Positions 16,276 through 60,075 of a DNA stretch of 64,000 nt are shown piece after piece. The number at the start of each line of letters is the position of its first letter. The stretch's first letter is position 1. The position numbers and the translations under genes were made by a program. The stretch lies in the NCBI GenBank assembly GCA_015956445.1, contig WIUZ02000010.1:62001-126000 (forward strand), in the 5' to 3' direction. The DNA is from Thelephora terrestris (lineage: Eukaryota > Basidiomycota > Agaricomycetes > Thelephorales > Thelephoraceae). The notes under the pieces were generated by a model that was not told the DNA's origin, did no database searches, and worked only from the letters and a program-made list of their open reading frames with translations.

Positions 16276-16319
16276 CTTGAGACCTTGGGTTATCCGTGTG
16301 GTACCTTGATTAGTGCCTC

Positions 16320-17255
16320 AAGAGGTTCGTGCTGTGTGGTGTACCGAGTCTTAAGCTCCTCAGGTCCAGAATTTGCTCTCGGGAGACGACTACAGGAGCC
16401 CAGTAACTCCTGGGAGGTTTTCTCTCATCCATGACGAGCTCGTCGTGTGGGCCGATCGAGAACTTTCCCCAACCTACTCTTCAATGACCAATTCGTACCG
16501 CTCCGCTCATCAAGGACTCATCTCCAAACACGTCAGGCGTCCCTAATAGCGAGCTGTGGCAACAATGTTCAGGTGCAAGTCCTGGCAAGGCAAGTTTCGA
16601 CCATAAATCACACTCGAAGCGCGAAAAGGAGTGCCTCGAAAGGTTCCGAACCGGCCGAGAAGTATCCGGTCACACTGGTCATTCGCCTCCTACAGCTACT
16701 CAAGTTGCCTGAGGACCCTGCGCGCGCTTTGGTTGCGGAGACCTTCCGCGAGACGAAGTGGTGTGTATGTGCAGCAACCCGAAATTCAGGGGGCAGGTCG
16801 GGTTCTTTGAGTTGGTACGTCTTGTCTCCACCTCAACGCGGTTCTTCGGTGTTGCTAACCGTTCATTCTGTATAAGCTCCAACACCTGGTTTCTGAGAAC
16901 GAAGCCTACGAAGAGCTCGATAGCAAGGCCCAGCGAGGACTTAAGGGTCCCGACCAGGAATCACTTGCGAAGTTCCTTTGATCAACGACCACGGCCCATC
17001 TCTCCTCCCGTCTCGACACGGCCCGAGCAAGCCCCGCCAGGCGTATTGCGGACTTTGTTTCCAAGTGACTGGGGTCATGAAATTCTTGGGTAACGATAAG
17101 AAATTTATGGCGTATCATATAGAGGCAAAGTGAGTTCGGGCACCCGCCCCCGTTGACTGTTTCGCGGGCGATCAGATCTGAGGGTTACGATAGACGCTGA
17201 CGTATACTGCAGTACCTCGTTTAGGCACGGGCGTTCCATAATGTGATCATAACCC
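16320..17255 (+). pseudogene. Zinc-finger family relic I (3' part)
   Basis: Homologous to the 3' half of the gene at 38308-40423. It reads LIHDELVVWADRELSPTYSS, then SKHVRR followed by two stop codons near 16543-16549. It continues out of frame through a Cys pair and the segment ending in the C2H2-like finger. The end FLGNDKKFMAYHIEAK, a donor at about 17130 and the last-exon homologue HGRSIM are preserved. All 5' exons are missing, so it is a 5'-truncated pseudogene. It converges on NLR copy A. Confidence 0.75.
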
Positions 17256-18270: not shown

Positions 18271-21215
18271 TTAGCAAGGATGGGAGGCAGCATCACGTCC
18301 GGAAAACTCACCACTGGAATCTGATTTGCCTGAGATAGACAGGCTTTCGATCGCTTGTTCAATTTCTTGGAGGATTTCTTGGCAGTCCCCTGCATCCTTC
18401 GCCGCCCCGAGCCTCTCATAGATCTCCAGTGCGGCCAAACCCTCGAATCTTGCATCTTCCAGCCTACGTTGCCGGAACCAAAGCTGAGCCTGTAATTGCA
18501 TCGCGCGACCCAGGTTGTATGCGTCGTCAACCGCGTGGGATTTGGCTTGTTGAATGTGGATGTTTGCGTTGCCAGACTCGCCTTCGGACGAGAATAGCTG
18601 TGCCATAGCGTAATGAATAAAAAATAGTGAAGGTTGCCAATTGAAGCGGGATGCGATTTGGAGGGCTGTCTCGAAATGGTCCAAGGCCTTCTCTTTCTCT
18701 CCCTTGCGATGGTATATCCCACCAAGAATGTGATGAGATTGGCAGAGCAGAAATTCTTGGCCTTTCCCCAGGACTAGATCGATCGCGCGTGATGCCGCGT
18801 TTTCTGCACCGTCGAGTTGTTCGTCCGCAAGCAACAACCGAGCGAGCTCATTCAAACAACCCGCTTGATTGGTCGTGTTCCTGCGCCGTTTGTAGATTTC
18901 CAATGCTTCCTCCGCTTGTTGGATTCCTTCCTTGTAAAGTCCAAGCCTCCGATTTACATCGCATAGGAACTTCAATGTTTGAGCAACCCGATCATCATCC
19001 CCGTTCTCCTTCTCGAGCGTCAAAGTATGGATAAGCAGTCGCTTTTTTTCTGTGTGATTTCCGACCACTCCAAACAAGGCAGAAAGCTCAAACAAGCATT
19101 TAGCCTTGGAGCGATGACCATCAGGGAGGTCTTCGATCTTCGACCCTAGCAAAGTGTTCCGTGGCTTGTGCCAATAGAGGTGGTCCATAAAGTGACAACA
19201 AGCTTTCCAGACATCATGTGTGTTTGGGTCGATTGAAGTAAAGACATTGAGCAAATGCTCAACATTTACATCCTCGGACTTTATCCACTCCGCTTCTTGG
19301 AATCCAGGTTCATCAGGATCAACATGAACCGACAACCGGGTGAAGTAACGATCCTTGGTTGCACAGAGGAGGGAGGAAGATTCTGGATTGAGGGGGCAGA
19401 GGTAGTCTCTGATTGGAGCCAACATCGTGATGAACCCGTTGTTTCGGTGCGTCAAAGAGAGAATGCAGAATTTGTCAAAGATTTCCTTTCTGTTGGTGGT
19501 CGTGGGAAACAACCAGTCGAGGTGTTTCTCGTCGATCCCTTGTGGAAAGAATGCGACAACTTCGAGGAGCTCACGGGCACTGGGGGGGATTTTGCGAAGG
19601 ATGGGGGAAGGGATTAGTTTCCTGAATGTTGGGGAGGCGGCGACTCTGTGGGATTTTGACGAAGGGAGGAGTTGGCGGAATGTCGGGGAATCGAGTGAGA
19701 GTTCGATCGTTGCAGCCAGGCTCTCGTTGTGGTGTGTCCGAAGTACTTGCACTCGGCGTGCGTCCCACTCCTTGGCCAATCGATTGTGGTCCCACCCATT
19801 GTGAGCGGCTGTGGTAGCAAGCAGTGTGATTGAGAGCGCATGGAAATCAAGTTGTCTGACGAGCTCGCCAATGACGTCTGATTGTCCGCTGTTGGTGTAG
19901 ATGGCATAAAAGATCTCGCATGCTGAATCTGCTGATAGCGTAGGGAGGACTGGACGCTTGCAGTGTGGGGGGACAGTGGTGATGCGCGAGGTTATACCAA
20001 GGCAGATGTTCTTGAAGTGGCTCAATTCCTCCACCACGGCGTATATTTTCCGGGAATCCGCTCCCTGTGGGTCGAGAATGGATTCAGCATTGTCGAGAAA
20101 CAGGATCATCTCCCTCGAGGACAGAGATGGTCGCAAAGGAGTCAAATCCTCAGGGTTCTCGACGCCTGCACCAATAACTTGGGAGATCCGGGCGAGAAAA
20201 TGGAGGTACGAAGCTGGGAACTGATCACAGCGGATGAATCGTCGGTTGTCGCCAAACCGGTCCTTGACGCGATCGTGGTGGAGGACAGCCAGCGCGATGG
20301 AGGTTTTCCCGATGCCCCCTGCACCGATGAGAGCGACGGGTTCGAGGTTTTCGGCGAGACCGATGATCTCCTCGATCAGTTTTTCACGTCCGAAACACGC
20401 CCTGGGAGGCGGGGGAGGAGACTCTCCCAGAGGAACACTAAGCAAGGGTAAGCAATGGGCCTTCGAGTTTCACAAACACCGACCTAGCTTGAGACTCCAA
20501 GACCATCAGCGTCTCGTTGATGACGGACAAAAGCCGGACTTACTGTTCGATGCTGGTCAATAGCACCTCCTTGACCTGTCGACGTGTTTTGATGGCCATC
20601 TGCGACCAGCATGATCGCCAGTTCGGTCTGAGAGAGGTTGTTATAAAATGCCAAGCGGGACTGACTGAACGTACGTTGAAGATGTGGAGGATCCTATTGA
20701 GGTCCCGGCTCCAAGCGGAGATGTTGTCTTTGTCCTTTTTAGCGTGAAGAACCTGAGAGGCCGCATTTCGTTTGCCCAGCTTGACAATCTCCCTCTGGAT
20801 TCTGGCCAAAGTTCTGCATTTGGTTAGCGAAACACGCGACGGCCACATCACCGGTTCAACCCACGTGGTCAACTCTCCAATTGCCTCGAGCGCCGACGGA
20901 GTGACTTCGTCCAACCGTCTGCCTTTCGACCCACGGTCGAGAGCTTTGCATACGCCGGCGCACAATCGCCCAAGATCAATGTATTTCTGCTTGTTGAACA
21001 TCGGGTCCTGGGTGAACGTGAGCCTGGAGCTCACGACTGCGGAGTGGGAGGGAACGTACTCTGATCGTAGTCAGGAGGGCACCGGCGGAGTCGAACGCAT
21101 CTTGAGCTGGTGGGATATCACTGGTGTCTCTGGCACGGTTGATAACTTGGATGTCGCTGTCTAAAGTTGAGGAAAGCCCATCGCGCCCATCATGACCCTT
21201 AGACGTTGAAGCCAT
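18271..21215 (-). CDS. NLR copy A: helical domain, NB-ARC-like ATPase, TPRs
   Basis: Six exons: 21060-21215, 20865-21007, 20675-20813, 20544-20627, a 29-nt micro-exon 20484-20512, and 18271-20437. Phases agree and give about 905 aa. The first 170 residues are helical (IPPAQDAFDSAGALLTTI, LCAGVCKALDRG, ARIQREIVKLGKRNAA), resembling the four-helix N-termini of fungal NLRs. That similarity to HeLo/MLKL-type cell-death domains is inference. The STAND ATPase follows: P-loop GAGGIGKTS near residue 222, Walker B ILFLDNAES near 295, sensor LGITSR near 331. Residues about 560-880 form TPR-like helix pairs (LGLYKEGIQQAEEALEI, KGEKEKALDHFETAL). A GTGAGT donor at 18311 may splice to a short last exon near 18250-18000, so the exact C-terminus is uncertain. 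All exons are open, so A looks functional. Confidence 0.88.
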
Positions 21216-21359: not shown

Positions 21360-22500
21360 CGCATCGGCGCTCTGTTCAGAAACCCCCATCTATAACGGTA
21401 ACGGAGGGTTACTGGCCAAATTACTCACTCTGGAACAACTTGTGGGACCTGCACACTTTGGTTTGCTTCCCGCCATCACCAAGCACGCCTCCAACCAGGT
21501 TCAACTCCACTACGAAGAATGGACAGGGCGATCGGATCGATATCTTCGTCGTCGCGATCACCTGCTGCACGACTGGATTTCCTCCGCTTCGGTCAGTATA
21601 GGAACTTGGAGTAGGAGCGCGTTCGCTCGATCGAGGGGATTTACCGGCAATGGCGAACCCCAACATCCGGTCGTGGCTTATGAACACCCACCACTCGCAA
21701 ATATCTCAAGAAGAACGAGAACTTGGACGTCAGGCAATCTTGGAATGGTCCAGCCCCGGTGTCGGTGCGATACACCAAAAAGCGAGAGGAATTAGGGATA
21801 CGACAGGGAGTGGAGGTGAGAGGACGGGAAATCGAGCAAGTTCAGCCCCTGGTGAGTTCCTCTCCTATGTCCGAGCCCCCTGCGACCCACGGGCTTCCCA
21901 GTCATACAGCTCAACAACCTGGCCGGCTCAATTCTCAAAGGGAACACCGAGTTTTCCGAACTCGGTTGCCGAATCTTACGGACAAGACCTGAATCCTCAA
22001 CGGCCAAGTCGCAGCTGGGCACCCCAATCGACTCCCCGGGAGGGTCCGTTCCGCTGATGTGGCTACTCGGGACGTCCACGTTTACGGATCCGTGCCCTCC
22101 TTACAGAAGCGAGGGCGACTGCTTCCTATCCTCCGCAGCTGCCGAGCCCCGCGACGTTCATGTCATGCTGCTCGCGATTCGTAACGGCCAGTCGCACAGC
22201 GCAACAGCCTCGCCGTCTCAATTCTCAAAGAAACACCAAGTTTTCCGAGCTCGGTTGCCGAATCTTATGGAGAAGACTCAAATCTTTGATGGCCAAGTCG
22301 CAGCTGGGCACCCAATCAACTCCGGGCCCTCAAGTCGCACGTTCAAGAGGATCCGCTTTACCGATGTGGTTACTCGGGACGTTCACGTTTACAGATTCAT
22401 GCCCTCCTCCCAGGAGCGAGGGCGACGGCTTCGTATATCCTCAACAGCTGCCGAGCCCCGCGACGTTCCAGTCATGTTGCTAGTGATTATTAACGGCCCT
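21360..22500 (+). pseudogene. Unidentified array gene relic, copy 1
   Basis: A plus-strand, low-coding-potential segment upstream of NLR A, repeated at 44.58-45.7 k and in part at 29.74-30.53 k, 33.47-33.72 k and 52.44-53.23 k. Coding texture appears in several frames, such as LHYEEWTGRSDRYLRRRDHLL near 21530 and a charged, coiled-coil-like KKREELGIRQGVEVRGREIEQ near 21780. No frame stays open. It is probably the 5' part of one or two dead copies of an array gene, perhaps the zinc-finger family. I do not recognise a domain. Confidence 0.5.
21905..22475. repeat. Internal tandem duplication, about 300 bp unit
   Basis: 21905-22165 and 22205-22475 are two diverged copies in tandem. Both run from a CTCAATTCTCAAAG block through a GAGCCCCGCGACGTTC block, with the same order of landmarks between (GGTTGCCGAATCTTA, GCAGCTGGGCACCC, GGGACGTTCACGTTTAC or variants). 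The same pair is present at 45128-45700. Confidence 0.75.
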
Positions 22501-22509
22501 CTTACCTCT

Positions 22510-23065
22510 CGTTCCGCTATCGAAGATGCTAAGGAGAGTGTCGCAGAGGAACGTACTTCCCAGTATATTCCCCAGCGCTCCCTCATACGAAGTTCGGTCA
22601 CATTGGCTATCCGCCTCCTCCGGTTGCTTGAGTTGCCTGAGGACTCTGCACGCTCTTGTTGAGGAGACCCTCCGCGAAATGATGTTCGTTTGTTTGTGCG
22701 GCAGCCCGAAGTTCAGGAAACAAGTTGGGTTCCTCGAGTTGGTGCGTCCCGTCTCCACGTCAATGCGGTTCTTCGGTTTGGCTGATCGTTCGTTCCGTTT
22801 CTGGGGTCCAAGCTTCAACACTTTACTTCTGAGAACGAAGCCTACGAGAAACTCTATAACAAGGCCCAGCTAGGACCCAAGGGCCCAGACGAGGAATCAC
22901 TTTGCTGCGAAGTTCCTTTTCCAACGACCACGACCCATCCCTCCTCCCTTCCCTCATCTGACGCGTGGACCCTGGACAGCCTCGACTGAAGCTCGAGACA
23001 GGATCCGTCAATGGACACGGCCCGGGAAAACCCCGCAAGGCGTAGTGACATGTGAGTGATGTCAT
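22510..23065 (+). pseudogene. Zinc-finger family relic II
   Basis: Homologous to the middle and 3' part of the 38.3-40.4 k gene: pieces reading TLAIRLLRLLELPED, FVCLCGSPKFRKQVGF and then SENEAYEKLY. Frames shift repeatedly, the central Cys-rich segment is missing, and the sequence stops before the terminal finger. Nearly identical to 45734-46289. Confidence 0.72.
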
Positions 23066-23849: not shown

Positions 23850-25125
23850 CAATTGCCAATCGAGGCGTTCGGTGGAAACAGACCGACTCGCAGAGCGTTC
23901 CGCCAGCTTTCCTCTCTGGGTTTCTCTCAAGAAATCATTTCCGCAGAGTGGCCGAATTCGGAACGGTAGCATTTCGACCAAGCCATCCTCATGGGAGTTC
24001 GTGACTGGAGCAACCAATGTCAATTCTTCCCTCTAAGCTGTCTCATTCTTCAACTGATCCTCTCATCAGACTGGAACGAGAAAGTTTTCCCCAGACTTTT
24101 GCCATTCTCCGGTCAGTTGAACAGGAGATCGAAAAGCAGAAGCACATGAAAAACATTGAGGCGCGGCAAAAGGAGTTTGCGACATGTTCCGCCCAGTTGA
24201 TCGAACGATACAAGCCCTTTCTCGAAAGCACCGCCTTAAGACGTGCACCTAGCATTCAGAAGTTGCTCCCTGAGGATGACTAAAAGACCCCGATAACTCC
24301 TGAGAGGTTTTCTTCTATCTACGACGAGCTCGTCTTATGGGCCTATCGAGAGCTTGCCCCGACCTACTCTGCAATGGCCGATTCGTTCCGTTCCACGCAT
24401 CGCGGCCTCCTATCTCCAAACCCGTCGGGCGTTCCTGATCGCGAGCTGCTGGAAAAGGTGGTAAGGACGTTCGGGTGCAAGTCCTGCGAGGCCGTTTTCG
24501 ACTATAAATCACACCCGAAGCACGGAAAGGAGTGCCTCAAGGCCGTCCGGGCTCGAGCTGTTGGTTCAACAGGTTCTGAACCGGCCGAAAAGCATGCGAT
24601 CATACTGGCCGTTCGTTTACTCCAGTTTTTGGAACTGCCTGAGGACTCCATGCGCGCTTTGGTTGAGGGGACCTTTCGCGAGACGAAGTTCGTTTGTCTG
24701 TGCGGCAACCCGAAGTTCAGGAAACAGGTCGTGTTTTTCGAGTTCGTACGTCTTATCTCCACGTCAGAATCGTTCCTCGGTTTTGCTAACCGTTCATTCC
24801 GTTCAAGCTTCAAGATCTGATTTCTGAGAACGAAGCCTACGAGGAGCTCGATAGCAAGACCCAGCTAGGACTCAAGGTTCCGGGTGAGGAATCACTTTGC
24901 TGCGAAGTTCCTTTAATCGACCACGACCCATCCCTCATCCGACGCGTGGGCCCTGGACACCCTCGGTGGAAATTAGAAACCAGATCAGCCAACGGAAAAA
25001 GCCCAAGCAAGCCCCGCCAGGCATATTGCAATCTTTGTTTCCAAGTGACTGGGGTCAGGAAGTTCTTGGGTAACGATAAGGGCGTTGCGATGGATGCTGA
25101 CGTAGGCTTCATTTAGGCACGGGCG
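23850..25125 (+). pseudogene. Zinc-finger family relic III
   Basis: It aligns with exons 3-5 of the gene at 38308. The piece corresponding to LPIEAFGGNRPTRRAF starts at 23851. Disabling changes are TAG in place of a Gln codon (SER-stop-HFDQ, about 23967) and TAA in place of Tyr (about 24282, PEDD-stop). In the last segment the bases encoding the finger's two histidines and the last intron are deleted (the text jumps from LGNDK to GVAMDADVG near 25080). The central CKSCEAVFDYKSH motif is kept. The same lesions occur at 47074-48349. Confidence 0.85.
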
Positions 25126-26138: not shown

Positions 26139-29111
26139 TTAGCAAGGATCGGGGGCAGCATTGTGTCTGGAAAACTCACCACTGAAATCTGATTTCTCTG
26201 GGATAGACTGGCGTTCGATCGCTTGTTCAATTTCTTGGAGGAGTTCTCGGCAGCGACCTGCATCCTTCGCCGCCCCAACCCTCTCAAAGATCTCCGGTGC
26301 GGCCAAACCCTCGGATCTTGCGTCTTCCAGCCTACGTTGCTGAAACCAAAGCCGAGCCTGTAATTCCATCGCGCGACCCTGGAGGTATGTATTGTCAACC
26401 GCGTGCGATTTGGCTTGTTGAATGTGGGTGTTTGCATTGCCAAACTCGCCTTCGGACGAGAATAGCTCTGCCATACTGTAATGAATCCAAAATAGTAAAT
26501 TTTGCCAATTGAAGCGGGATGCGATTCGGAGGGATGTCTCGTATTGGTCCAACGCCTTCTCTTTCTCTCCCTTGTCAAGATATATCCTGCCAAGAATGTG
26601 ATGAGATTGGCAGAGCAGAAATTCTTGGCCTTTCTCCGGTATTAGATCGACCGCGCGTGATGCCGCGTTTTCTGCATCGTCGAGTTGATCGTTGTCAAGC
26701 AACAACCAAGCGAGGTCTTTCAAACATCGCGCTTGATTGATCGTGTCCCTTCGCCGTTTGCGGATTTCCAATGCTTCCTCCGCTTGTTGGATTCCTTCCT
26801 TGTAAAGTCCAAGCCTCCTATTGACATCGCATAGGAACTTCAATATTAGAGCGACCCGATCATCATCCCCGTTCTCCTTCTCGAGCGTCAAAGTATGAAT
26901 GAGCAGTCGCTTTTTTTCTGTGTCATTTCCGACCTCTCCAAACAAGGCAGAAAGGTCAAACAAGCATTTAGCCTTGGAGCGATGACCATCAGGGAGGTCT
27001 TCGATCTTCGACCCTAGCAAAGTGTTCCGTGGCTTGTGCCAATAGAGGTGGTCCATAAAGTGACAACAAGCTTTCCAGACATCATGTGTGTTTGGCTCGA
27101 TTGAAGTAAAGACATTGAGCAAATGCTCAACATTTACATCCTCGGACTTTATCCACTCCGCTTCTTGGAATCCGGGTTCATCAGGATCAAGGTGAACCGA
27201 CAACCGGGTGAAGTAACGATCCTTGGTTGCACAGAGGAGGGAGGAAGATTCTGGATTGAGGGGGCAGAGGTAGTCTCTGATTGGAGCCAACATCGTGATG
27301 AACCCGTTGTTTCGGTGCGTCAAAGAGAGGATGCAGAATTTGTCAAAGATGTCCTCTCTGTTGGTGGTCGTGGGAAACAACCAGTCGAGGTGTTTCTCGT
27401 CGATCCCTTGTGGAAAGAATGCGACAACTTCGAGGAGCTCACGGGCACTGGGGGGGATTTTGCGGAGGATCGGGGAAGGGATAAGTTTCCTGAATGTTGG
27501 TAAGGCAGCGACTCTGTGGGATTTCGACGAAGGGATGAGTTGGCGGAATGTCGGGGAATCGAGTGAGAGTTCGATCGTTGCAGCCAGGCTCTCGTTGTGA
27601 TGTGTCCGAAGTACTTGCACTCGGCGTGCGTCCCACTCCTTGGCCAATCGATTGTGGTCCCACCCATTGTGAGCGGCTGTGGTAGCAAGCAGTGTGATTG
27701 AGAGCGCATGGAAATCAAGTTGTCGGACGAGCTCGCCAATGACGTCTGATTGTCCGCCGTTGGTGTTGATGGCATAGAAGATCTCGCATGCTGAATCCGC
27801 TGATAGCGTAGGGAGGACTGGACGCTTGCAGTGTGGGGGGACAGTGGCGATGCGCGAGGTTATACCAAGGCAGATGTTCTTGAAGCAGCTCAATTCCTCC
27901 ACCACGGCGTATATCTCTCGGGAGTCCTTCCCCTGCGGGTCGAGAATGGATTCAGCATTGTCGAAGAACAGGATCATCTCCCTCGAGGACAGAGATGGTC
28001 GCAAAGGAGTCAAATCCTCAGGGTTCTCGACGCCTGCACCAATAACTTGGGAGATCCGGGCGAGAAAATGGAGGTACGAAGCTGGGAACCGATCGCAGCG
28101 AATGAATCGTCGGTTGTCGCCAAACCGGTCCTTGACGCGATCGTGGTGGAGGACGGCCAGCGCGATGGACGTTTTCCCGATGCCCCCTGCACCGATGAGA
28201 GCGACGGGTTCGAGATTTTCGGCGAGACCGATGATCTCCTCAATCAGTTTGTCACGTCCGAAACAGGCCCTTGGAGGCGGGGGAAGAACCTCTCCCACAG
28301 GAACACTATGGAAAGGTAAGCGATGCGCCTCCGATTCTCGTAAACACCAACCTGGCTTGCGTCTTGGAGGCCATCAGCATCTCGTCGACGACAGATAGAA
28401 AGCCGTACTTACTGATTGACCTTGTCCGATGGCATCCTCCGGACCTGCCCTTAGGTGGCGGTGCACATCCGTGAGTAGGATGGTATTATTGATTTGCAGT
28501 TCGAGCTGAGGGGGGGCTCTCATCGAACGCCAAACAGGGAGCAGAATTGACTGAACGCACGTCGAAGATTTGGCAGATCCTGTCGAGATCCCCATTCCAC
28601 CTGGCAATCTTATCTTTGTCGCTGTTTGCGTGGAAGGTTTTAGAGGCCGCGTTTCGATTATCCAGCTTGACAATCTCGCTCTTTATCCCGGCCAGGGTTC
28701 TGGATTGAGGGCTTAATGAGCGAACCGTTCAGCGTTCAGGATGCTGACTCAACACACGTGGTCAACTCTCCGATAGCCTCCAGCACTGACGGGCTGAGAT
28801 CGCCCAATCGCCTTCCCTTCAGCCCCCCGTCGAGAATCTTGCAAACCTTGGTGCATGCTTGCACAAGATCGGCGAAATCCTGTTGGTTGGTTATTGAGTC
28901 CTAGACAAGTGTCGATCAGAAGCTAAGCGTCGCAGAGGAAGGGGGAAAATACCCTAATCATGGTCAAGAGGTCGCCGGCAATCCCAAAAGCGGCCTGAGC
29001 TGGCGGAATGCCGTGGCAGGCGAGTTTTGCAACACTTGTAACCTTGATTGCTACACTCAGCATCGAGCGAACGCCATCGCGCCCTTTCTGTGTTTGGGAA
29101 GTTGAAGCCAT
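26139..29111 (-). CDS. NLR copy B: helical domain, NB-ARC-like ATPase, TPRs
   Basis: Six exons: 28953-29111, 28758-28900, 28561-28699, 28413-28505, micro-exon 28352-28380, and 26139-28305. The frame is consistent and gives about 909 aa. The ATPase is almost the same as in A (GAGGIGKTS; Walker B reads ILFFDNAES). TPRs follow with copy-specific residues, such as GRIYLDKG and FNWQNLLFWIHYSMAELF. The first four exons differ from A, C and D and resemble E instead: GIPPAQAAFGIAGDLLTMI, and a 93-nt fourth exon rather than 84 nt. B therefore looks recombinant. All exons are open and it appears functional. The true C-terminus beyond the GTGAGT donor near 26180 is unresolved. Neighbours are zinc-finger relics in convergent orientation and an AKR relic upstream. 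Confidence 0.88.
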
Positions 29112-30530: not shown

Positions 30531-31180
30531 TTACCTTCCCCTCCGCTATCGAAGATGCTAAGGAGAGTGTCGCAGAGGAACGTACTTCCCAGGATATTCC
30601 CTAGCGCTCCCTCATACGAAGTTCGGTCACATTGGCTATTCGCCTCTTCCAGTTGCTCGAGTTGCCTGAGGACTCTGTGCGCTTTGGTTGAGGAGACCTT
30701 CCGCGAAACGACGTTTGTTTGTGCGGCAACCCGAAGTCCAGGAAACAAGTCGGTTTTTTGAGTTGGTGCGTCCCGTCTCCACGTCATTGAACGCGGTTCT
30801 TCGGTTTGGCTGACCGTTCATTCCGTTCAAGCTCCAGCGAGGGATCACCCTGCTGCGAAATCTCTTTAGTCAATGACTACGATCCATCCCTCCTCCCTTC
30901 CCTCATCTGACGCGTGGACCCTGGGCAGCCTCGACGAAAGTTCGAGACCGGAAGTTCGAGACAGGATCCGTCAATGGACACGGCCCGAGCAAACCCCGCA
31001 AGGCGTACTGCGATCTGTTTCCAGTTGACTGGTGTCAGGAAGCTTCTTCGGTAACGACAAGGAACTCATGGCGTATCAAATGGAGATAGAGTGAGTTTGA
31101 GCAATCGCATCGCCAACTGTTTCGCAGGCGATGTGACGATGGATGCCGACGTACGCTTCGTTTAGGCATGTGCGTCCTAT
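30531..31180 (+). pseudogene. Zinc-finger family relic IV
   Basis: It corresponds to relic II plus the 3' end. It has ELPED-like and CAATRSPG pieces out of frame, a deletion joining the mid segment to the KISLVNDYDPSL-like segment near 30840, and a duplicated GTTCGAGAC motif near 30940-30965. The finger end is partly kept (a TGVRK-like piece and MAYQMEIE near 31070). Confidence 0.7.
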
Positions 31181-38307: not shown

Positions 38308-40423
38308 ATGGACCACTGGGAGTATGCTTCAATTCCGGCAGGATGTGATCCTTGGAAGAGAGAAAAGGACACCGCGCCGATAACTATCCCTCCCCCTCAG
38401 ACACCATCGAACGTGCTACAACATGGACGGCCTAACTTCGTGGCAGTCCACCCCTTTCATTTTCGAACCCAACTCGCTATATCTCTCATTCATCATGCAA
38501 GGGGGACGGCCCCATTCTGGAGTGTTCCACCACCGCGCGCGGCGATAACATGGGAAGACTGGCTTATACCGACGCGGATCTACCAGGGCCACAAAGACCA
38601 CGACATCACCCCGTCGTCTCACTCGGACTTGACTTGCATCAAAGTGAGATTCTCCTTCTCCGAACTCTGATCACCCGTGACTAAATCCCGCCACTATCAG
38701 GAATCGAAACAATGTTCAATATCATCACCGCGCACTAGGTGGCGAGTCTCGGTTACCACGAATGGCTACCGAATTCACATTTTGTCTCCTCAAAGGTTTT
38801 TCTTGAGGAAGAAGACAAGCGGATGGCGGATGCGTTGTGTGATCTCGACAGGGAGTGGAAGCGAAAGAGGTCGATTTGGACGCAACGCCCGGACACGGAA
38901 CCACCAGAGTTCAGGAGACTAGCAGGGCAGTATACTCCCACCCTGATACTCATCATGCGAGCCTATTATCTACGACAGGCGTTGTACGGCGCTCCCAAGC
39001 CCCACAAAAGGGACCACGAGCTTGAATTATATGTGCGCGACACCTGCCAGATTGCCAATCGAGGCGTTCGGTGGAAACCGACCGACTCGCAGAGCCTTCC
39101 GCCAGCTGTCCGCTCTAGGCTTCTCTCAAGAAATCGTTTCCGCAGAGTGGCCGAATTCGGAACGGCAGCAGTTCGACCAAGCCATCCTCATGGGAGTTCG
39201 TGACTGGAGCGACCAATGTCAATCCTTCTCTCTACCCTTTCTCGTTCTTCACCTGATCCTCTCACCAGACTGGAACGAGTACGTTGTCCCTAGACTTTTG
39301 CCAATCTTCCGGTTACCTTAACAGAAGATCAAAAAGCAGAAGCACACGAAAGACATTGAGGCGTGCAACAGGAGTTTGCGACATGTTCCGCCCAGTTGAT
39401 CGAACGGTACAAGCCCTTTCTCGACAGCGCCGTCTTGAGACGTGCACCTCACGTCCAGAAGTTGCTCTCTGAGGACGACTACAAGACCCCAGTGACTCCT
39501 GAGAGGGTTTCTTCTATCCACGACGAGCTCGTCTTATGGGCCGATCGAGGTCTTGCCCCGACCTACTTTACCATGGCCGATTCGTTCCGTTCCACGCATC
39601 GCGGCCCCCTATCTCCGAACAAGTCAGGCCTTCCTGATCGCGAGCTGCTGGAAAAGGTGGTAGCGATGTTCGTGTGCAAGTCCTGCAAGGCCATTTTCGA
39701 CTACAAGTCACACGCGAAGCACGGAAAGGAGTGCTTCAAGGCCATCCGGGCTCGAGCTGTCGGCTCGAAAGGTTCCGAACCGGCTGAGAAGTACGCGGTC
39801 ACACTTGCCGTTCGCCTCCTCCGGTTGCTCGAATTGCCCGAGGACTCCACGCGCACTTTGGTTGAGGAAACCTTCCGGGAAACGAAGTTCGTTTGTCTGT
39901 GCGGCAACCCGAAGCTCAAGAAACAGGTCGGGTTCTTTGAGTTGGTACGTCTTGTCTACACGTCAACGCCGTTCTTCGGTTTGGCTAACCGTTCATTCCG
40001 TTCAAGCTTCAACATCTGGTTTCTGAGAACGAAGCCTACGAAGAGCTCGACAGCAAGGCCCAGCTAGGACCCAAGGGTCCAGGCGATGAATCACTTCGCT
40101 GCAAAGTTCCTTTGATCAACGACCACGACCCATCCGTCCTCCCTTCTCTCATCCGACGCGTGGACCCTGGACAGCCGCGATGGAAATTGGAGACGAGATT
40201 CGCCAACGGACACGGCCCGAGCAAGCCCCGCCAGGCGTATTGCGATCTTTGTTTCCGGTTGACTGGGGTCAGGAAGTTCTTGGGCAACGATAAGGAATCC
40301 ATGTCGTATCATATGGAGGCAAAGTAAGTTCATGCACTCGCCCCCCCGTCGACTTTTTCACGGACAATGTGACGACGGATGCTGACGTACGCTTTGGTTA
40401 GGCACGGGCGTCCCATAATGTGA
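38308..40423 (+). CDS. Putative C2H2-type zinc-finger protein, best-preserved family member
   Basis: Exons: 38308-38643, 38739-38983, 39051-39282, 39325-39944, 40007-40323 and a 22-nt last exon 40402-40423. It starts in a perfect Kozak context. Exon 3 gives LPIEAFGGNRPTRRAF; exon 4 gives SIHDELVLWADRGLAPTY, the Cys/His cluster CKSCKAIFDYKSHAKH and FVCLCGNPKLKKQVGFF. Exon 5 ends with AYCDLCFRLTGVRKFLGN and MSYHMEAK, and the last exon adds HGRPIM-stop, completing a CX2C-X17-HX4H finger across the final intron. I do not recognise the family; a nucleic-acid or protein-binding role is only implied by the finger. One base appears to be missing near 39366 compared with the relics at 24.1 k and 47.4 k, so exon 4 changes frame. 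It may be a young pseudogene. It converges on NLR copy C. Confidence 0.72.
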
Positions 40424-44442: not shown

Positions 44443-44570
44443 CGTAGACACTTGTCGTAGTTGCGACGAAGGGCGCACGTTATCCACGCCGCGGGGAAAA
44501 GTCCGAACCCTGATAGAGATGAGCGCCTCGTGTAAGCATAGGCTTGATGAGGAGAAACACCAATAACTTG
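42650..44570. repeat. Recent NLR 5'-half duplication (matches 50.52-52.44 k)
   Basis: From about 42650 to 44570 this sequence is the same as 50517-52437 at an offset of 7,867 bp. I noticed almost no differences over 1.9 kb, including introns. Homology continues at lower identity on both sides. Confidence 0.85.
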
Positions 44571-45733: not shown

Positions 45734-46289
45734 CGTTCCGCTATCGAAGATGCTAAGGAGAGTGTCGCAGAGGAACGTACTTCCCAGTATATTCCCCAGC
45801 GCTCCCTCATACGAAGTTCGGTCACATTGGCTATCCGCCTCCTCCGGTTGCTTGAGTTGCCTGAGGACTCTGCACGCTCTTGTTGAGGAGACCCTCCGCG
45901 AAATGATGTTCGTTTGTTTGTGCGGCAGCTCGAAGTTCAGGAAACAAGTTGGGTTCCTCGAGTTGGTGCGTCCCGTCTCCACGTCAATGCGGTTCTTCGG
46001 TTTGGCTGATCGTTCGTTCTGTTTCTGGGGTCCAAGCTTCAACACTTTACTTCTGAGAACGAAGCCTACGAGAAACTCTATAACAAGGCCCAGCTAGGAC
46101 TCAAGGGCCCAGACGAGGAATCACTTTGCTGCGAAGTTCCTTTTCCAACGACCACGACCCATCCCTCCTCCCTTCCCTCATCTGACGCGTGGACCCTGGA
46201 CAGCCTCGACTGAAGCTCGAGACAGGATCCGTCAATGGACACGGCCCGGGAAAACCCCGCAAGGTGTAGTGACATGTGAGTGATGTCAT
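45734..46289 (+). pseudogene. Zinc-finger family relic V
   Basis: Near-identical partner of relic II (22510-23065), with the same frame breaks. Confidence 0.72.
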
Positions 46290-47073: not shown

Positions 47074-48349
47074 CAATTGCCAATCGAGGCGTTCGGTGGA
47101 AACAGACCGACTCGCAGAGCGTTCCGCCAGCTTTCCTCTCTGGGTTTCTCTCAAGAAATAATTTCCGCAGAGTGGCCGAATTCGGAGCGGTAGCATTTCG
47201 ACCAAGCCATCCTCATGGGAGTTCGTGACTGGAGCAACCAATGTCAATTCTTCCCTCTAAGCCGTCTCATTCTTCAACTGATCCTCTCATCAGACTGGAA
47301 CGAGAACGTTTTCCCCAGACTTTTGCCATTCTCCGGTCAGATGAACAGGAGATCGAAAAGCAGAAGCACATGAAAAACATTGAGGCGCGGCAAAAGGAGT
47401 TTGCGACATGTTCCGCCCAGTTGATCGAACGATACAAGCCCTTTCTCGAAAGCACCGCCTTAAGACGTGCACCTAGCATTCAGAAGTTGCTCCCTGAGGA
47501 CGACTAAAAGACCCCGATAACTCCTGAGAGGTTTTCTTCTATCTACGACGAGCTCGTCTTATGGGCCTATCGAGAGCTTGCCCCGACCTACTCTGCAATG
47601 GCCGATTTGTTCCGTTCCACGCATCGCGGCCTCCTATCTCCAAACCCGTCGGGCGTTCCTGATCGCGAGCTGCTGGAAAAGGTGGTAAGGACGTTCGGGT
47701 GCAAGTCCTGCGAGGCCGTTTTCGACTATAAATCACACTCGAAGCACGGAAAGGAGTGCCTCAAGGCCATCCGGGCTCGAGCTGTTGGTTCAACAGGTTC
47801 CGAACCGGCCGAAAAGCATGCGATCATACTGGCCGTTCGTCTACTCCAGTTTTTGGAACTGCCTGAGGACTCCACGCGCGCTTTGGTTGAGGGGACCTTT
47901 CGCGAGACGAAGTTCGTTTGTCTGTGCGGCAACCCGAAGTTCAGGAAACAGGTCGTGTTTTTCGAGTTCGTACGTCTTATCTCCACGTCAGAATCGTTCT
48001 TCGGTTTTGCTAACCGTTCATTCCGTTCAAGCTTCAAGATCTGATTTCTGAGAACGAAGCCTACGAGGAGCTCGATAGCAAGACCCAGCTAGGACTCAAG
48101 GTTCCGGGTGAGGAATCACTTTGCTGCGAAGTTCCTTTAATCGACCACGGCCCATCCCTCATCCGACGCGTGGGCCCTGGACACCCTCGGTGGAAATTAG
48201 AAACCAGATCAGCCAACGGAAAAAGCCCAAGCAAGCCCCGCCAGGCATATTGCAATCTTTGTTTCCAAGTGACTGGGATCAGGAAGTTCTTGGGTAACGA
48301 TAAGGGCGTTGCGATGGATGCTGACGTAGGCTTCATTTAGGCACGGGCG
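47074..48349 (+). pseudogene. Zinc-finger family relic VI
   Basis: Partner of relic III. It has the same TAG (about 47191) and TAA (about 47506) stops and the same deletion of the finger histidines near 48304. A few private substitutions are present, such as GAC for GAT just before the TAA. Confidence 0.85.
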
Positions 48350-49359: not shown

Positions 49360-52309
49360 TTAGCAAGGATCGGGGGCAGCATTGTGTCTGGAAAACTCAC
49401 CACTGAAATCTGATTTCTCCGGGATAGACTGGCGTTCGATCGCTTGTTCAATTTCTTGGAGGAGTTCTCGGCAGCGACCTGCATTCTTCGCCGCCCCGAG
49501 CCTCTCATAGATCTCCAGTGCGGCCAAAACCTCGGATCTCGCCTCTTTCTGCCTACGTTGCTGAAACCAAAGCCGAGCCTGTAATTCCATCGCGCAACCC
49601 TAGAGGTATGTATTGTCAACCGCGTGCGATTTGGCTTGTTGAACGTGGGTGTTTGCATTGCCAAACTCGCCTTCGGACGAGAATAGTGCTGCCATGGCGT
49701 GATGAATCCAAAATAGTAAATTTTGCCAATTGAAGCGGGATGCGATTCGGAGGGCTGTCTCGAAATGGTCCAACGCCTTCTCTTTCTCTCCCTTGCATTG
49801 ATATATGTTGCCAAGGACACGATGAAATTCGCAGAGCAGATATCCTTGGCCTTTCTCCGGGATTAAATCGATGCCGCGTGATGCCGCGTTTTCTGCACCG
49901 TCGAGTTGATCGTCCGCAAGCAACAACCGAGCGAGGTCATTCAAACAACTTGCTTGATTGATCGTGTTCCTGCGCCGTTCGAGGATTTCCGATGCCTCCA
50001 CCGCTTGTCGGATTCCTTCCGTGTAAAGTCCAAGCATCCGATTGACTTCACATAGGAACCTTAATGTTACAGCAACCTGAGCATCATCCCCCTTCTCCCT
50101 CTGGAGTGTTAAAGTGTGGATAAGCAGTCGCTTTTCTTCTGTGTGATTTCCGACCACTCCAAACAAGCCAGAAAGGTCAAACAAGCATTTAGCCTTGGAG
50201 CGATGACCATCAGGGAGGTCTTCGATCTTCGACCCTAGCAAAGTGTTCCGTGGCTTGTGCCAATAGAGGTGGTCCATAAAGTGACGACAAGCTTTCCAGA
50301 CATCATGTGTGCTCGGGTTGATTGAAGTAAAGACATCGAGCAAATGCTCAACATTTACATCTTCGGACTTTATCCACTCCGCTTCTTGGAATCCGGGTCT
50401 GTCAGGATGAAGGTCGACTGACAACCGGGTGAAGTAACGATCCTTGGTTGCACAGAGGAGGGAGGAAGATTTCGGATCAAGGGGGCAGAGGTAGTCTCTG
50501 ATTGGAGCCAACATCGTGATGAACCCGTTGTGTCGGTGCGTCAAAGAGAGGATGCAGAATTTGTCAAAGATGTCCTCTCTGTTGGTGGTCGTGGGAAACA
50601 ACCAGTCGAGGTTTTTCTCGTCGATCCCTTGTGGAAAGAATGCGACAACTTCGAGGAGCTCACGGGCACTGGGGGGGATTTTGCGAAGGATGGGGGAAGG
50701 GATTAGTTTCCTGAATGTTGGGGAGGCGGCGACTCTGTGGGATTTTGACGAAGGGATGAGTTGGCGGAATGTCGGGGAATCGAGTGAGAGTTCGATCGTT
50801 GCAGCCAGGCTCTCGTTGTGATGTGTCCGAAGTACTTGCACTCGGCGTGCGTCCCACTCCTTGGCCAATCGATTGTGGTCCCACCCATTGTGAGCGGCTG
50901 TGGTAGCAAGCAGTGTGATTGAGAGCGCATGGAAATCAAGTTGTCTGACAAGCTCGCCAATGACGTCTGATTGTCCGCTGTTGGTGTAGATGGCATAAAA
51001 GATCTCGCATGCCGAATCCGCTGATAGCGTAGGGAGGACTGGACGCTTGCAGTGTGGGGGGACAGTGGTGATGCGCGAGGTTATACCAAGGCAGATGTTC
51101 TCGAAGCGGCTCAATTCCTCCACCACGGCGTATATCTTCCGGGAATCCGCTCCCTGTGGGTCGAGAATGGATTCAGCATTGTCGAGAAACAGGATCATCT
51201 CCCTCGAGGACAGAGATGGTCGCAAAGGAGTCAAATCCTCAGGGTTCTCGACGCCTGCACCAATAACTTGGGAGATCCGGGCGAGAAAATGGAGGTACGA
51301 AGCTGGGAACCGATCGCAGCGAATGAATCGTCGGTTGTCGCCAAACCGGTCCTTGACGCGATCGTGGTGGAGGACGGCCAGCGCGATGGAGGTTTTCCCG
51401 ATGCCCCCTGCACCGATGAGAGCGACGGGTTCGAGGTTTTCGGCGAGACCGATGATCTCCTCGATCAGTTTGTCACGTCCGAAACAGGCCCTGGGAGGTG
51501 GGGGAGGAGACTCTCCCAGAGAGACACTACGCAATGGTCAGCAATGGGCCTTCGAATTTCACAAACACCGACCTGGCTTGAGTCTCAGAGACCATCAGCG
51601 TCTCGTTGATGACGAATACAAAGCCGTACTTACCGTTCGATGCTGGTCAGTAGCATCTCCTTGACCTGTCGACGTGTTTTGATGGCCATCTGCGACCAGC
51701 GTCATCGCCAGTTCGGTCTGAGAGCGGTTGTTATCAAATGCCAAGCGGGGCTGACTGAACGTACGTTGAAGATGTGGAGGATCCTATTGAGGTTCCGACT
51801 CCAAGCGGCGATGTTGTCTTTGTCCTTTTTTGCGTGAAGAACCTGAGAGGCTGCATTTCGTTTGCCCAGCTTGACAATCTCCCTCTGGATTCTGGCCACA
51901 GTCCTGCATTGAGAAGTCGGTTAGCGATGCACGCGACCACATCACCGGTTCAACCCACGTAGTCAACTCTCCAATTGCTTCTAGCGCCGAGGGACTGACT
52001 TCGTCCAACCGTCTGCCTTTCGACCCCCGGTCAAGAGCTTTGCATACGCCGGCGCACAATCGCCCAAGATCGATGTATTCCTGTTTGTTGAACATCGGGT
52101 CCTGAGTGAACGTGAGCCTGGAGCTCACAACTGCGGAGTGGGAGGGAACGTACTCTGATCGTAGTCAGGAGGGCACCGGCGGAGTCGAACGCATCTTGAG
52201 CTGGTGGGATACCACTGGTGTCTCTGGCGCGGTTGATAACTTGGATGTCGCTGTCTAAAGTTGAGGAAAGGCCATCGCGCCCGTCATGTCCCTGGGACGT
52301 TGAAGCCAT
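49360..52309 (-). pseudogene. NLR copy D: truncated by a nonsense codon
   Basis: Exons: 52154-52309, 51959-52101, 51765-51903, 51634-51717, micro-exon 51573-51601, and a main exon from 51526 that meets TAG at 49600-49602. B has a Gln codon at this site (NTYLQGRAMELQ), so one C-to-T change cuts the last TPRs and leaves about 825 aa. Downstream sequence (49360-49590) still reads ELQARLWFQQRRQKEARSEV and the normal end. The 5' half equals copy C, while the 3' half follows B, so D is a recombinant. TPR residues differ again (GNIYQCKG, FNWQNLLFWIHHAMAALF). The shortened protein keeps the N-terminal domain and ATPase and might still be made. Confidence 0.85.
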
Positions 52310-52439
52310 CGTAGACACTTGTCGTAGTTGCGACGAAGGGCGCACGTTATCCACGCCGCGGGGAAAAGTCCGAACCCTGATAGAGATGAGCGCCTCGTGT
52401 AAGCATAGCCTTGATGAGGAGAAACCCCAATAACTTGCC

Positions 52440-55495: not shown

Positions 55496-56450
55496 GTGTA
55501 GTGTACCGGGTTTCAAGCTCCTCAGGTTCAAAAATTGCTCTCGGGAGACAACTACCACACCACTGTAACTCCCGAGACGCTCTCTTTCATCCACGACGAG
55601 CTCGTCGTGTGGGCCGATCGAGAACTTTCCCGAACCTACTCTTCGATGGCCAATTCCCTTCCGCTCCGCTCGTCAAGGACTGATATCTCCAAACACGTCA
55701 GGCGTTCTCAATCGCGAGCTGCAGTACCGATGTTCGGGTGCAAGTCCTGCAAGACCATTCTCGACCGTAAATCACACTCGAAGCACGAAAAGGAGTACCT
55801 CGAAAGGTTCCGAACCGGCCGAGCAGTATCCGTTCACACCGGTCATTCGCCTCCTACCATTGCTCGAGTTGCCTGAGGACTCTGCACGTGCTTTGGTTGA
55901 GTAGACCTTCTGGGAAGCGAAGTTCGTGTGTCTGTGCGGCAACCCGAAGTTCAGGAAATGAGTCGGGTTCTTTGAGTTGGTGCGTCTTGTTTCCACCTCA
56001 ACGCCGTTCTTCATTTTGGCTAACGGTTCGTTCTGTTGAAGCTTCAACGTATACGAAGCGTAAAAAGAGCTCGATACCAAGGTTCGGCTAGGAGTCGAGG
56101 GTTCGGACGTGGGTCCACTCTGCTGCGAAGTCTCCTTCATCAACGACCACGACCCATGTTTCGTCCCATCCCTCATCCGATGTGTGGACCCTGGACAGCC
56201 TCGGTGGAAATTTGAGACGAGATCCGCTGGCAGGCACGGCCGGAGCAAGCCCCGCCAGGCGTGCTGAAATCTGTGTTTCCAATTGACTGGGGTCAGGAAA
56301 TTCTTGGGTAACGATAAGGAGTTCATGGCGCATCATGTGGAGGCAAAGTGAGTCCGCGCACCCGCACCTCCAACTTTTTCGCGGGCGATGTGACGATGTA
56401 TGCTGACGTACGCTTCGTTCAGGCATGTGCAACACATCGTGTATTTAATC
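55496..56450 (+). pseudogene. Zinc-finger family relic VII
   Basis: It aligns with the same segment as relic I: LSFIHDELVVWADRELSRTY, then a frame change into SKHVRRSQSRAAV and the Cys-rich piece FGCKSCKTILDRKSH. TAG occurs near 55902 and TGA near 55961. The end NLCF-like, then FLGNDKEFMAHHVEAK, the last intron and the final exon homologue are recognisable. The 5' exons are lacking. Confidence 0.75.
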
Positions 56451-56760: not shown

Positions 56761-59697
56761 CTAACCACTGGAATCTGATTTGTCTGGGATAGCCTGTCTT
56801 TCGATCGCTTGTTCAATTTCTTGGAGGAGTTCTCTGCAGTCCCCTGCATCCTTCGCCGCCCCGAGCCTCTCAGAGATCTCTAGTGCGGCCATAGCCCCGG
56901 ATCTCGCCTCTTGCAGCCTACGTTGCTCAAGCCAAAGCCGAGCCTGTAATTCCACCGCGAGACCCAGGTTGTATGCGCCGTCAACCGTGTGGGATTTGGC
57001 TTGTTGAATGTGGGTGTTTGCATTGCCAGACTCGCCTTCGGATCGGAATAGCACTGCCATAGCGTAATGAATCCAAAACAGTGGATCTTGCCAATTGAAG
57101 CGGGATGCAATTCGTAGGGCTGTCTCGAAATGGTCTATGGCTTTTTCTTTCTCTCCCTTGTTACGGTATATCTTGCCAAGGACTTGATGAGATTCGCAAA
57201 GCAAGAATTCTTGGCCTTTCTCCGGGATTAGATCGATCGCGCGTGATGCCGCGTTTTCTGCACCGTCGAGTTGTTTGTCCTCAAGCAAAAACGAAGCGAG
57301 GACGTTCAAACAATGCACTTGGTTGATTGTGTTCCTGCGCCGTTTGTGAATCTCTATTGCTTCCTCCGCTTGTTGTATTCCTTCCGTGTAAAGTCCAAGC
57401 GTCCGATTAGCATTGCATAAAGACAGTAATGTTTCAGCAACCTGGTTTTCATCCCCCTTCTCCTTCTCGAGCGTCAAGGTGTGAAGAAGCAGTCGCTTTT
57501 TTTCTACGTGATTTCCGACCACTCCAAACAAGGCCGAAAGCTCAAGCAAGCATTTAGCCTTAGATCGATGACCATCAGGAAGGTCTTCAATCTTCGACCC
57601 TAGCGAAGTGTGCCGTGGCTTGTGCCAATAGAGGTGGTCCATGAAGTGACAACAAGCTTTCCATACATCACGAGTGTTCGGGTCGATTAAAATGAAGACA
57701 TTGAGCAAATGCTCAACGTTTACATCCTCAGACTTGATCCACTCCGCTTCTCGGAATCCGGGTCCATCAGGATCAAGGGAAACTGACAACCGGGTGAAGT
57801 AATGATCCTTGGTTGCACAAAGGAGGGGGGAAGACTCTGGATTGAGGGGGCACAGGTAGTCTCTGATTGGAGCCAACATCGTGATGAGCCCGTTGTTTCG
57901 GTGCGTCAAAGAGAGGATGCAGAATTTGTCAAAGATGTCCTCTCTGTTTGTGGTCGTGGGAAACAACCAGTCGAGGTTTTTCTCGTCGATCCCTTGTGGA
58001 AAGAATGCGACAACTTCGAGGAGCTCACGGGCACTGGGGGGGATTTTGCGGAGGATTGGGGAAGGGATAATTTTCCTTAATGTCGGGAAGGCGGCGACTC
58101 TGTGGAATTTTGACGAAGGGACGAGTTGGCAGAATATCGGGGAACCGAGTGAGAGTTCTATCGTTGCGGCCAGGCTCTTGTCATGAGGTGTTTGAAGTAC
58201 CTGCACTCGACGTGCGTCCCACTCCTTGGTCAATTGATTGTAATCCCACTCGTTCTGAGAGGCCGTGGTGGCAAGCAGTGTGATTGAGAGCGCGTGGAAA
58301 TCTAGTTGCCTCACAAGGTCGCCGATAAGGTTTGATTGTTCACTGTTGGTGTAGATGGCATAAAAGATGTTGCATGCCGATTCCGCCGACAATGTGGGGA
58401 CGACTGGACGCTCGCAGTGTGGGGGGACAGTGGTGATGCGCGAGGTAATCCCAAGGCAGATGTTCTCGAAGCGGCTCAGTTCCTCCACCACGGCGTATAT
58501 CTCTCGGGAGTCCTTCCCTTGCGGGTCGAGAATAGTCTCGGCATTGTCGAGGAACAGGATCATCTCCCTTGAGGACAGGATTGGTCGCAAAGGTGTCAAA
58601 TCCTCAGGGTTTTCGACGCCTGCACCAATGACTTGAGAAATTCGGGCGAGAAAATGGAGGTACGAAGCTGGGAACCGATCGCAGCGGATGAATCGTCGGT
58701 TGTCGCCAAACCGGTCCTTGACGCGATCGTGGTGGAGGACAGCCAGCGCGAGGGATGTTTTACCAATGCCCCCTGCACCGATGAGAGCGACGGGTTTGAG
58801 GCTTTTGGCCAGACCGACAATCTCCTCGATCAGTTTTTCACGTCCGATACAAACCCTGGGAGGCGGGGGAGGAGATTCTCCCAGAGGAACACTACGCAAA
58901 GGTAAGTGATGCGCCTCCGATCTTCACAAATACTGACCTGGCATGAATCTCGGGGACCATCAGCGTCTCGCCGATGACGGATAGAAGGCTGTACTTACTG
59001 GTTGACGTTGTCCGATTCCATCCTCCGCACCTGCCATTATCTTGCAAAGGGTGTCCGTGACTCCGATATTGGTGTTAATCTCCAGTTCGATCTAAGGGGG
59101 GCTCTGATCGAGTGCCAGACAGGGAGCAGAACTGACATAACGCACGCTGAAGAGTTGTCGGATCTTATCGAGTTCCCGATTCCACCTGGCAATCTTATCT
59201 TTGTCGCTATTCGCATGGAGGGCTTGAAAGGCCGCGTTTCGTTTACCCAGCTTGACAATCTCGCTCTGTATCCCGGCCAGTGTTCTGAATCGAGGGCTCA
59301 GTGAGCGAACCATTCGGCGTTCACGATGTTGGCTCGACCCACTTAGCCAACTCCTCAATCGCCTTCAGCACTGACGGGCTGAGATTGCCCGATTGCCTTC
59401 CCTTCAGCCCCCGGTCAAGAGCTTTGCACACACGGGCGCATGCTAGCCCGAGATCGACGAAATCCTGTTGGTTGGCCAGTGAGTCCTAGACGAGTGTGGG
59501 TCAGAAACTAAGCATCGCAGAGGAAGGGGGAAACATACCCTGATCATGGTCAGGAGGGCGCCGGCAATCCCAAAAGCGACTTGAGCTGGCGGAATACCGT
59601 GGCAGGCATCCTTCGCAGCGCTTATGACTTTGATGATTGCATTCAACGTCGAGCGAACGTCATTGTTCCCTTTCTGTCCCTGGGAAGTTGAGGCCAT
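56761..59697 (-). CDS. NLR copy E: helical domain, NB-ARC-like ATPase, TPRs
   Basis: Six exons: 59539-59697, 59343-59485, 59146-59284, 58999-59091, micro-exon 58938-58966, and 56761-58891. The frame is consistent and gives about 897 aa. It is the most diverged member: the linker reads RVCIGREKLIEEIVGLAKSL, the Walker B side reads ILFLDNAETILD, and the TPRs have GKIYRNKG and FNWQDPLFWIHYAMAVLF. N-terminal exons match B (GIPPAQVAFGIAGALLTMI). All exons are open, so it looks functional. The final donor region differs from the other copies (ACCACTGG without a clear GTGAGT; the copy reads to a stop at 56761). A minus-strand stretch at 56445-56687 (ALNMDPDRPLVPERN) may be a terminal exon. It is the right-most member of the array. 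Confidence 0.88.
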
Positions 59698-60075
59698 TGT
59701 CGATTTTCGTGGTAGGCTGTGGTAGGTCTGAGGAGAGGGTGTGTGGTGGAAGTACTGCGGGGGAACGCCTGAACCTGATGGGAGGTGCCAAGGAAGTGCC
59801 GCGGCGTTCCCCGTGTCAGCATATAGCCTTTCAATAAGGAGAAATTCCAGTAACTTGCCACATTTCAGCGTTCATCGTCAAGTCCGGAGCGATCTGAATT
59901 AGTTGGAGTCGGTACCTACTCATTTCGAAAACCGCCATCTTTAGTTGTAATGCGGGGCTACTGGCCGAATGAATCACTGTGAGATGACCAACAGAGCAAG
60001 CGACACAACGAGCTGTGCATGTGAGATCCCGCGCACTTTCGTTTGCTTCCTGCCATCACCAGGCGCATCAGCAAA
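59698..60075. repeat. Right flank of the array
   Basis: 5' flank of NLR E. From about 59865 it is recognisably similar to 52440-52620 (GTTCATCG, TTGGAGTCGGT, GGGCTACTGGC, CGCGCACTTTCGTTTGCTT). The similarity stops at about 60070, immediately before the hexamer cluster. Confidence 0.65.

Follow-up and report, generated by a model that had tools for sequence, protein, structure and literature searches.

Why does a gene that is not a receptor lie beside every copy of a receptor in a tandem NOD-like receptor (NLR) array, and does it take part in what the receptors do? The question is raised by a stretch of 64,000 nucleotides from Thelephora terrestris (assembly GCA_015956445.1, contig WIUZ02000010.1, positions 62,001 to 126,000), referred to here as the window, which is C2:62001-126000 in our contig numbering. 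The genome comprises 40.6 Mb in 60 contigs, and all comparisons were made within this one genome. A first-pass annotation had described five minus-strand NLR genes, each with a plus-strand copy or relic of a zinc-finger family on or near its 3' side, and had proposed that the zinc-finger protein, of no recognisable family, could be a partner, guardee, or regulator of the NLR. As far as the DNA itself can tell, the array most probably consists of tandem single-protein fungal NLRs with an MLKL-like N terminus, a STAND nucleoside triphosphatase (NTPase), and tetratricopeptide repeats (TPR). It would have expanded by segmental duplication of a unit of about 8 kb that includes a convergent F-box/zinc-finger gene; of the two genes, the NLR would keep its reading frame open from copy to copy and the F-box gene would decay as a passenger, and recombination would join the NTPase-TPR part anew to one or the other of two N-terminal types.

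Self-alignment of the window reveals a unit of ~7.9 kb in tandem. The spacing is mostly ~7.87–8.05 kb, with 7.37 kb for the last NLR pair, and a higher-order duplication relates 17799-28412 to 41024-51633 at 95% identity. The five NLR genes all lie on the minus strand, at 18271..21215 (NLR1), 26139..29111 (NLR2), 41460..44442 (NLR3), 49600..52309 (NLR4), and 56761..59697 (NLR5), where the higher coordinate is the start codon and the lower one the stop of the large exon. Self-comparison, Pfam searches, and alignment bear out the arrangement first described: in all five cases a zinc-finger copy on the plus strand lies at the gene's 3' side. What had been overlooked is a second set of partial plus-strand relics, found by self-comparison and alignment on the 5' side of NLR1 (22595..23044), NLR2 (30617..31085), and NLR3 (45819..46268). 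The array continues beyond the window with a sixth NLR copy at C2:133387, so that six close paralogues are spread over about 56 kb.

With the large exon of NLR3 as a query, the genome yields 103 matches in 61 scored genes, out of 267 first-look candidates, and all NLR counts rest on these 61. Seventeen genes form a subclade of 81–100% identity, and the other 44 scored NLRs are 54–77% identical in the matched stretches. Sixteen members of the subclade are on C2 (six at 80–136 kb, eight at 235–314 kb, one at 403 kb, and one at 1,440 kb), and one is on C5. The large exon is open for 709–747 codons in 16 of the 17; in NLR4 it is 641 codons, a TAG standing at large-exon codon 641, ~80 codons before the stops of NLR1 and NLR2. 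The Walker A motif GAGGIGKT is likewise present in 16 of the 17. The remaining gene, L040 (C2:255823), has GAGGIGQT, with glutamine in place of lysine in an otherwise open NLR, and is possibly an NTPase-dead member. TPR_12 lies over the Pfam cut-off in all five window NLRs, with expect values (E) of 7.5e-9 to 3.6e-14. In a predicted model of the NTPase-TPR exon, the TPR part (residues about 470–700) has a predicted local distance difference test score (pLDDT) of 79–96 per ten-residue block, and the Foldseek matches of the model are TPR proteins, the sixth being the STAND-TPR protein 6mfv.

The N-terminal exons, which precede the NTPase exon, were assembled manually at conserved GT-AG borders, and in all 17 subclade NLRs they are open with such borders. 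The N terminus of NLR5 matches MLKL_N (PF22215) with an E of 9.8e-7 and 28.8 bits, over the cut-off of 27. Eleven of the 17 N termini were scanned, and MLKL_N was found in nine of them at E ≤ 0.1. Comparison of an N-terminal profile with PDB sequences gave five matches at E ≤ 1, all of them to MLKL (E 0.21–0.24, not significant alone). MLKL-like N termini are known on basidiomycete NLRs, and in excerpts of the same report the superfamily that unites MLKL-like domains with the related HeLo and Goodbye domains is the commonest one at the N terminus of these receptors (PMC9815663).

By their N terminus, Walker A NTPase, and repeat sensor, the subclade members are predicted to be NLRs of the fungal BaMLKL-STAND-TPR type, and the proposed tandem cluster of an immune or allorecognition kind is supported. 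Since an MLKL-like N terminus, a STAND NTPase, and a TPR sensor are combined, receptor and executioner would reside within one protein. A ligand would be sensed at the concave surface of the TPR superhelix, oligomerisation of the STAND NTPase would follow, and the N-terminal MLKL/HeLo-like four-helix bundle would attack the membrane and kill the hyphal compartment, with cell killing serving nonself recognition or defence. The domain content, the tandem units, the decay of the F-box copies, the pattern of TPR sites, and the conflict among trees can be read from the sequence; ligand binding, oligomerisation, membrane attack, and the immune role are steps that we infer. On triggering, the receptors probably kill the cell. 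Taking open reading frames plus constraint as the mark of a live gene, the NLRs appear to be the live part of the array.

The constraint is not even along the receptor. The ratio of nonsynonymous to synonymous divergence (dN/dS, taken per block as mean dN to mean dS over the 17 genes) rises from 0.16–0.32 at large-exon codons 1–350 to 0.49–0.79 at codons 501–700. Within the repeats, variation is concentrated at TPR positions 2, 5, 9, 12, 13, 33, and 34, which we take to be the ligand-facing hypervariable set. Entropy at these positions is 1.30 bits versus 0.41 elsewhere (35 versus 135 sites in five repeats; Mann-Whitney p 1.7e-9), and no circular shift of the set, out of 33, equals this contrast, in a register that was not blind, the five repeat offsets having been set via motif consensus residues after the entropy list was viewed. 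The pooled dN/dS is 1.32 at the seven positions (0.94–2.13 in 200 site bootstraps), compared with 0.40 for the rest of the TPR sites and 0.24 for the NTPase part (residues 1–300). These values suggest that the ligand-facing positions diversify while the NTPase is constrained. Some variable TPR sites, such as large-exon positions 407, 414, and 483, switch among R, W, Q, C, and H, as under CpG transitions, and CpG decay may feed the diversity of the sensor.

The N-terminal region divides the 17 genes into two types, with 64–71% DNA identity between types in the compared pairs. Type I comprises nine genes (NLR1, NLR3, NLR4, L037, L038, L039, L040, L042, and L045), and type II comprises eight (NLR2, NLR5, L032, L034, L036, L041, L043, and L044). 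The groups were named from the N-terminal alignment and identity tables before any tree was made. A single change of type is needed on the N-terminal tree (support 100/100). The NTPase tree requires four changes and the TPR tree seven; in each, at least three are imposed by well-supported branches. When type I is forced to be monophyletic, the constraint is rejected by the approximately unbiased test on both the NTPase tree (p 0.00085) and the TPR tree (p 1.8e-6). In steps of 200 alignment columns, NLR2 and NLR3 are 82–99% identical in the large exon and 63–70% identical in the N-terminal region. A split that is clean in its own tree and scattered in the NTPase and TPR trees points to recombination among the paralogues. 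A block of 1,822 bp at 42720..44541, identical to 50587..52408 and covering the N-terminal exons and part of the NTPase of NLR3 and NLR4, is probably a recent conversion or duplication tract.

In a variant that is compatible with this account, the N-terminal types are old paralogous lineages around which the NTPase-TPR parts have been homogenised. The same tree conflict is expected from such homogenisation, and the NTPase tree does unite five genes of the first array (NLR1 to NLR4 and L032; 100/100) regardless of their N-terminal type. The variant differs from re-pairing only in which part moved, the N terminus or the NTPase-TPR part, and the tree conflict does not decide between the two; moreover, the identical tract of NLR3 and NLR4 spans the N terminus as well as part of the NTPase, so tracts are not limited to one side. 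We regard homogenisation as a serious possibility that falls somewhat short of an even chance. Whichever part moved, recombination would re-pair two executioner types with diversifying sensors, and this dimorphism appears to be the new point here, the kind of NLR being already known. More tentatively, and with considerable doubt, gene conversion may shuffle two lasting MLKL-like executioner types among receptors that have the NTPase in common and a sensor under diversifying selection, so that each strain would combine killer types and ligand specificities in its own way. The membranes attacked, or the partners required, could differ between the two types.

To what family, then, does the neighbouring gene belong? 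A genome search with the zinc-finger copy at 39.4 kb gave 20 matches, which were merged to 16 places. In the copy on C5 (locus L010), the upstream exons encode an F-box (PF12937, E 1.2e-8, 35 bits versus a cut-off of 24.3, from two exons joined by hand). The same locus shows further cysteine pairs, a long middle part, a C-terminal C-x2-C...H-x4-H arrangement, and two open zinc-finger exons; apart from the F-box, these features were recognised by eye. Because the C5 copy carries an F-box, the zinc-finger family is an F-box family, and the idea that it belongs to no recognisable family is rejected. The C5 gene presumably belongs with a large Agaricomycete family of F-box proteins with a C-terminal zinc finger, which it resembles. 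Isolated zinc-finger pieces give no Pfam match over the cut-off.

The window copies are reduced and broken versions of this gene. Measured against the C5 frame, all five contain frameshifts, and four contain stops as well. The copy on the 3' side of NLR1 (16355..17130, plus strand, as are all five) has five frameshifting gaps in exon A and lacks F-box exons. That of NLR2 (24014..25080) has one frameshift and a TAA, is accompanied by a middle-exon piece at 23592-23879, and is without F-box exons; that of NLR4 (47254..48304) shows the same lesions as the 24-kb copy, with a middle-exon piece at 46816-47103. Two frameshifts and one TAA interrupt the copy of NLR3 (39241..40324), again without F-box exons, and three frameshifting gaps and four stops that of NLR5 (55517..56348). 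No F-box exon was found in any window copy: the part of L010 that precedes its base 875 has no blastn match in the window, and F-box exon 2 (64 residues) has no tblastn match in the window at E 0.01, the exon 1 piece of 19 residues being too short to count. Across the genome, F-box exon 2 has six matches, none of them in the window.

Substitutions were assigned to branches by a majority of the C5, 24-kb, and 39-kb copies at their common node, with exact exon borders. The C5 branch has 16 nonsynonymous and 24 synonymous changes (dN/dS 0.20), the 24-kb branch 42 and 29 (0.44), and the 39-kb branch 36 and 15 (0.73). C5 differs from both window branches together (Fisher test, p 0.0098) and from the 39-kb copy alone (p 0.005). 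By these ratios the C5 lineage is constrained and the two window copies are relaxed. On the 24-kb branch, 14 of 72 changes are CpG transitions, compared with 5 of 53 for the 39-kb copy and 5 of 42 for C5; in these counts exon A extended into the intron by four codons and exon B started two codons too soon.

The position of the F-box gene relative to the NLRs bears on the proposed partnership. For 15 of the 16 zinc-finger places, the listed coordinate of the neighbouring subclade NLR is 1.1–4.4 kb away, so the homologues are not scattered away from such neighbours; the sole exception, at C2:365 kb, is 38 kb from the nearest scored subclade NLR and is a distant relative of 28–35% identity. In this relative (L018, C2:363590-366976) both zinc-finger exons are open, and no F-box was seen by eye in the DNA examined. 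A zinc-finger piece occurs within 5 kb of ten of the 17 subclade NLRs (nine when the 238-kb piece is counted for a single neighbour only); the other seven lack one, as do all 44 scored NLRs outside the subclade (Fisher p 2e-7 for 10/17 versus 0/44, a statistic that ignores shared descent). At another locus (L036, C2:1438564-1443696), positions 4442-4711 hold a middle-exon piece of the F-box gene (77% identical in protein) that lies 3' of the 1,440-kb NLR, is convergent with it, and lacks exons A and B.

The shared spacer of the first-pass annotation is real: the segment at 21880..22520, 5' of NLR1, has 18 matches in the genome, 17 on C2 and one on C5. It lies on the 5' side of subclade NLRs, including all seven members without a zinc-finger piece, and one match (C2:340 kb) adjoins no scored subclade NLR. 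A linkage that is confined to one NLR subclade and includes flanking non-coding DNA is as segmental duplication predicts. The distribution of pieces among the subclade and other NLRs indicates that a segment was duplicated and that, of its two genes, one then decayed and the other survived. The F-box/zinc-finger copies in the window are, on this sequence evidence, best described as dead passengers of segmental duplication.

A functional alternative is an ancestral pair, in which the F-box protein acted in an SCF ubiquitin ligase that sets the NLR level, or was guarded by the NLR, and the pair was lost copy by copy in the window clade. On C5, an intact-looking F-box gene is convergent with an open NLR of the same subclade, its lineage is constrained, and the pieces beside ten subclade NLRs agree with such a pair; a weak form of the partner hypothesis survives at that single locus. 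However, the intact linkage is found there only, all five window copies are dead, and any such piece is missing from seven of the 17 subclade NLRs and from the 44 other scored NLRs. Nor was a broad linkage of F-box genes to NLRs found, an idea that is rejected: none of the 150 F-box places scored (of 441 candidates) lies within 10 kb of the 61 NLRs scored (of 267 candidates), in a count that under-represents intron-split F-boxes, the split C5 F-box having been found by its own query only. Among the titles and abstract openings listed in literature searches, none describes a fungal F-box/NLR gene pair. We consider an ancestral pair improbable. Within the window itself, a partner, guardee, or regulator role is disfavoured because the copies are truncated and decayed, and as a partner there the zinc finger is rejected.

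Still less probable is that a window zinc-finger frame makes a short NLR regulator without the F-box. The best case is the 39.4-kb copy, with 235 codons open, most of exon A and exon B readable, and a pairwise dN/dS against C5 below 1; however, its branch has the higher dN/dS of the two window branches, its upstream part contains two frameshifts and a stop, and the other four copies are frameshifted within the same exon. That the repeats are a mobile element with the zinc-finger protein as its product is barely credible, since, although copies occur on two contigs, these are restricted to C2 and one C5 locus, no transposase or reverse-transcriptase domain was found by Pfam in 30 window open reading frames (ORFs) and nine zinc-finger pieces, and a search of the window for inverted repeats of at least 80 bp, its lower limit, found none.

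Several results weigh against the account of duplicated NLRs with decaying passengers. The nSTAND1 (E 1.1e-5 to 4.4e-5) and NB-ARC (E 0.007–0.009) matches of the window NLRs are both under the curated Pfam cut-offs, as are their AAA_16 matches, and of 16 NB-ARC places in the genome, the 15 that pass the cut-off all lie outside the window. The NTPase part of the predicted model has low confidence (mean pLDDT 62.2, with 331 of 736 residues below 50). The N-terminal exon models are hand-made, the frame in which exon 4 joins the large exon is not settled for either type, and the type I N terminus of NLR3, scanned without exon 4, matches MLKL_N with an E of 0.038, under the cut-off. For the sensor, the bootstrap interval of dN/dS at the seven TPR positions extends below 1, and the paralogue pairs are not independent. 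For the F-box gene, the C5 branch compared with that of the 24-kb relic alone is not significantly different (p 0.074). In addition, the pairwise dN/dS of relics against C5 is 0.09–0.50 (27 comparisons, with the same displaced exon borders as the CpG counts), which implies that the F-box copies were under constraint and functional for part of their history.

Other features of the window lie around and within the array. A different NLR is situated outside it at 116-1774 on the minus strand (NPHP3_N, E 6.2e-29; NACHT, E 8.5e-9). An F-box ORF over the cut-off is found at 9617-10504 (minus strand; PF00646, E 9.7e-5), and directly to the left of the array, at 14100-15107 on the plus strand, is a match to a Tle1-like catalytic domain (PF09994, E 2e-11). 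The stretch 33828-35537 is duplicated at 53452-55157 with 86% identity. Its ORF is limited to C2 (seven matches) and has no Pfam match, and the stretch appears to be a second kind of passenger.

The array can be regarded as a natural experiment, with 17 close paralogues in a single genome, two executioner types, an NTPase common to all, and a sensor in which the ligand-facing sites are distinct in rate. It also carries a caution: even when a gene accompanies an immune receptor at each of its copies, it may be no more than a passenger of the duplicated segment.

The C5 copy appears to resemble the Agaricomycete F-box/zinc-finger proteins, whereas the window copies are without the F-box and broken. 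Basidiomycete NLRs are numerous and, in the excerpts of the report cited above, not sufficiently described (PMC9815663). The BaMLKL NLRs of that report share an MLKL_NTD-like four-helix N terminus with the genes studied here, and TPR C termini are reported among fungal NLRs; 17 close paralogues, six of them in an array of ~56 kb, with two N-terminal types exchanged by recombination, are not described in those excerpts (PMC9815663). In the sections available of a study on Podospora NLRs with TPR or ANK repeats, the variable, selected sites map to the concave surface of the TPR domain and domain combinations are reshuffled, as here; in contrast, Podospora strains differ in the number of repeats, and the repeats studied there are almost identical to one another within a gene, whereas here the repeats differ and the variation is among paralogues (PMC4986451). 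The NLR clusters of Sordariales, as summarised in part of a recent survey, contain two to five NLRs and in only 16 of 272 cases consist of paralogues (PMC12258605), compared with six close paralogues in the one array of T. terrestris.

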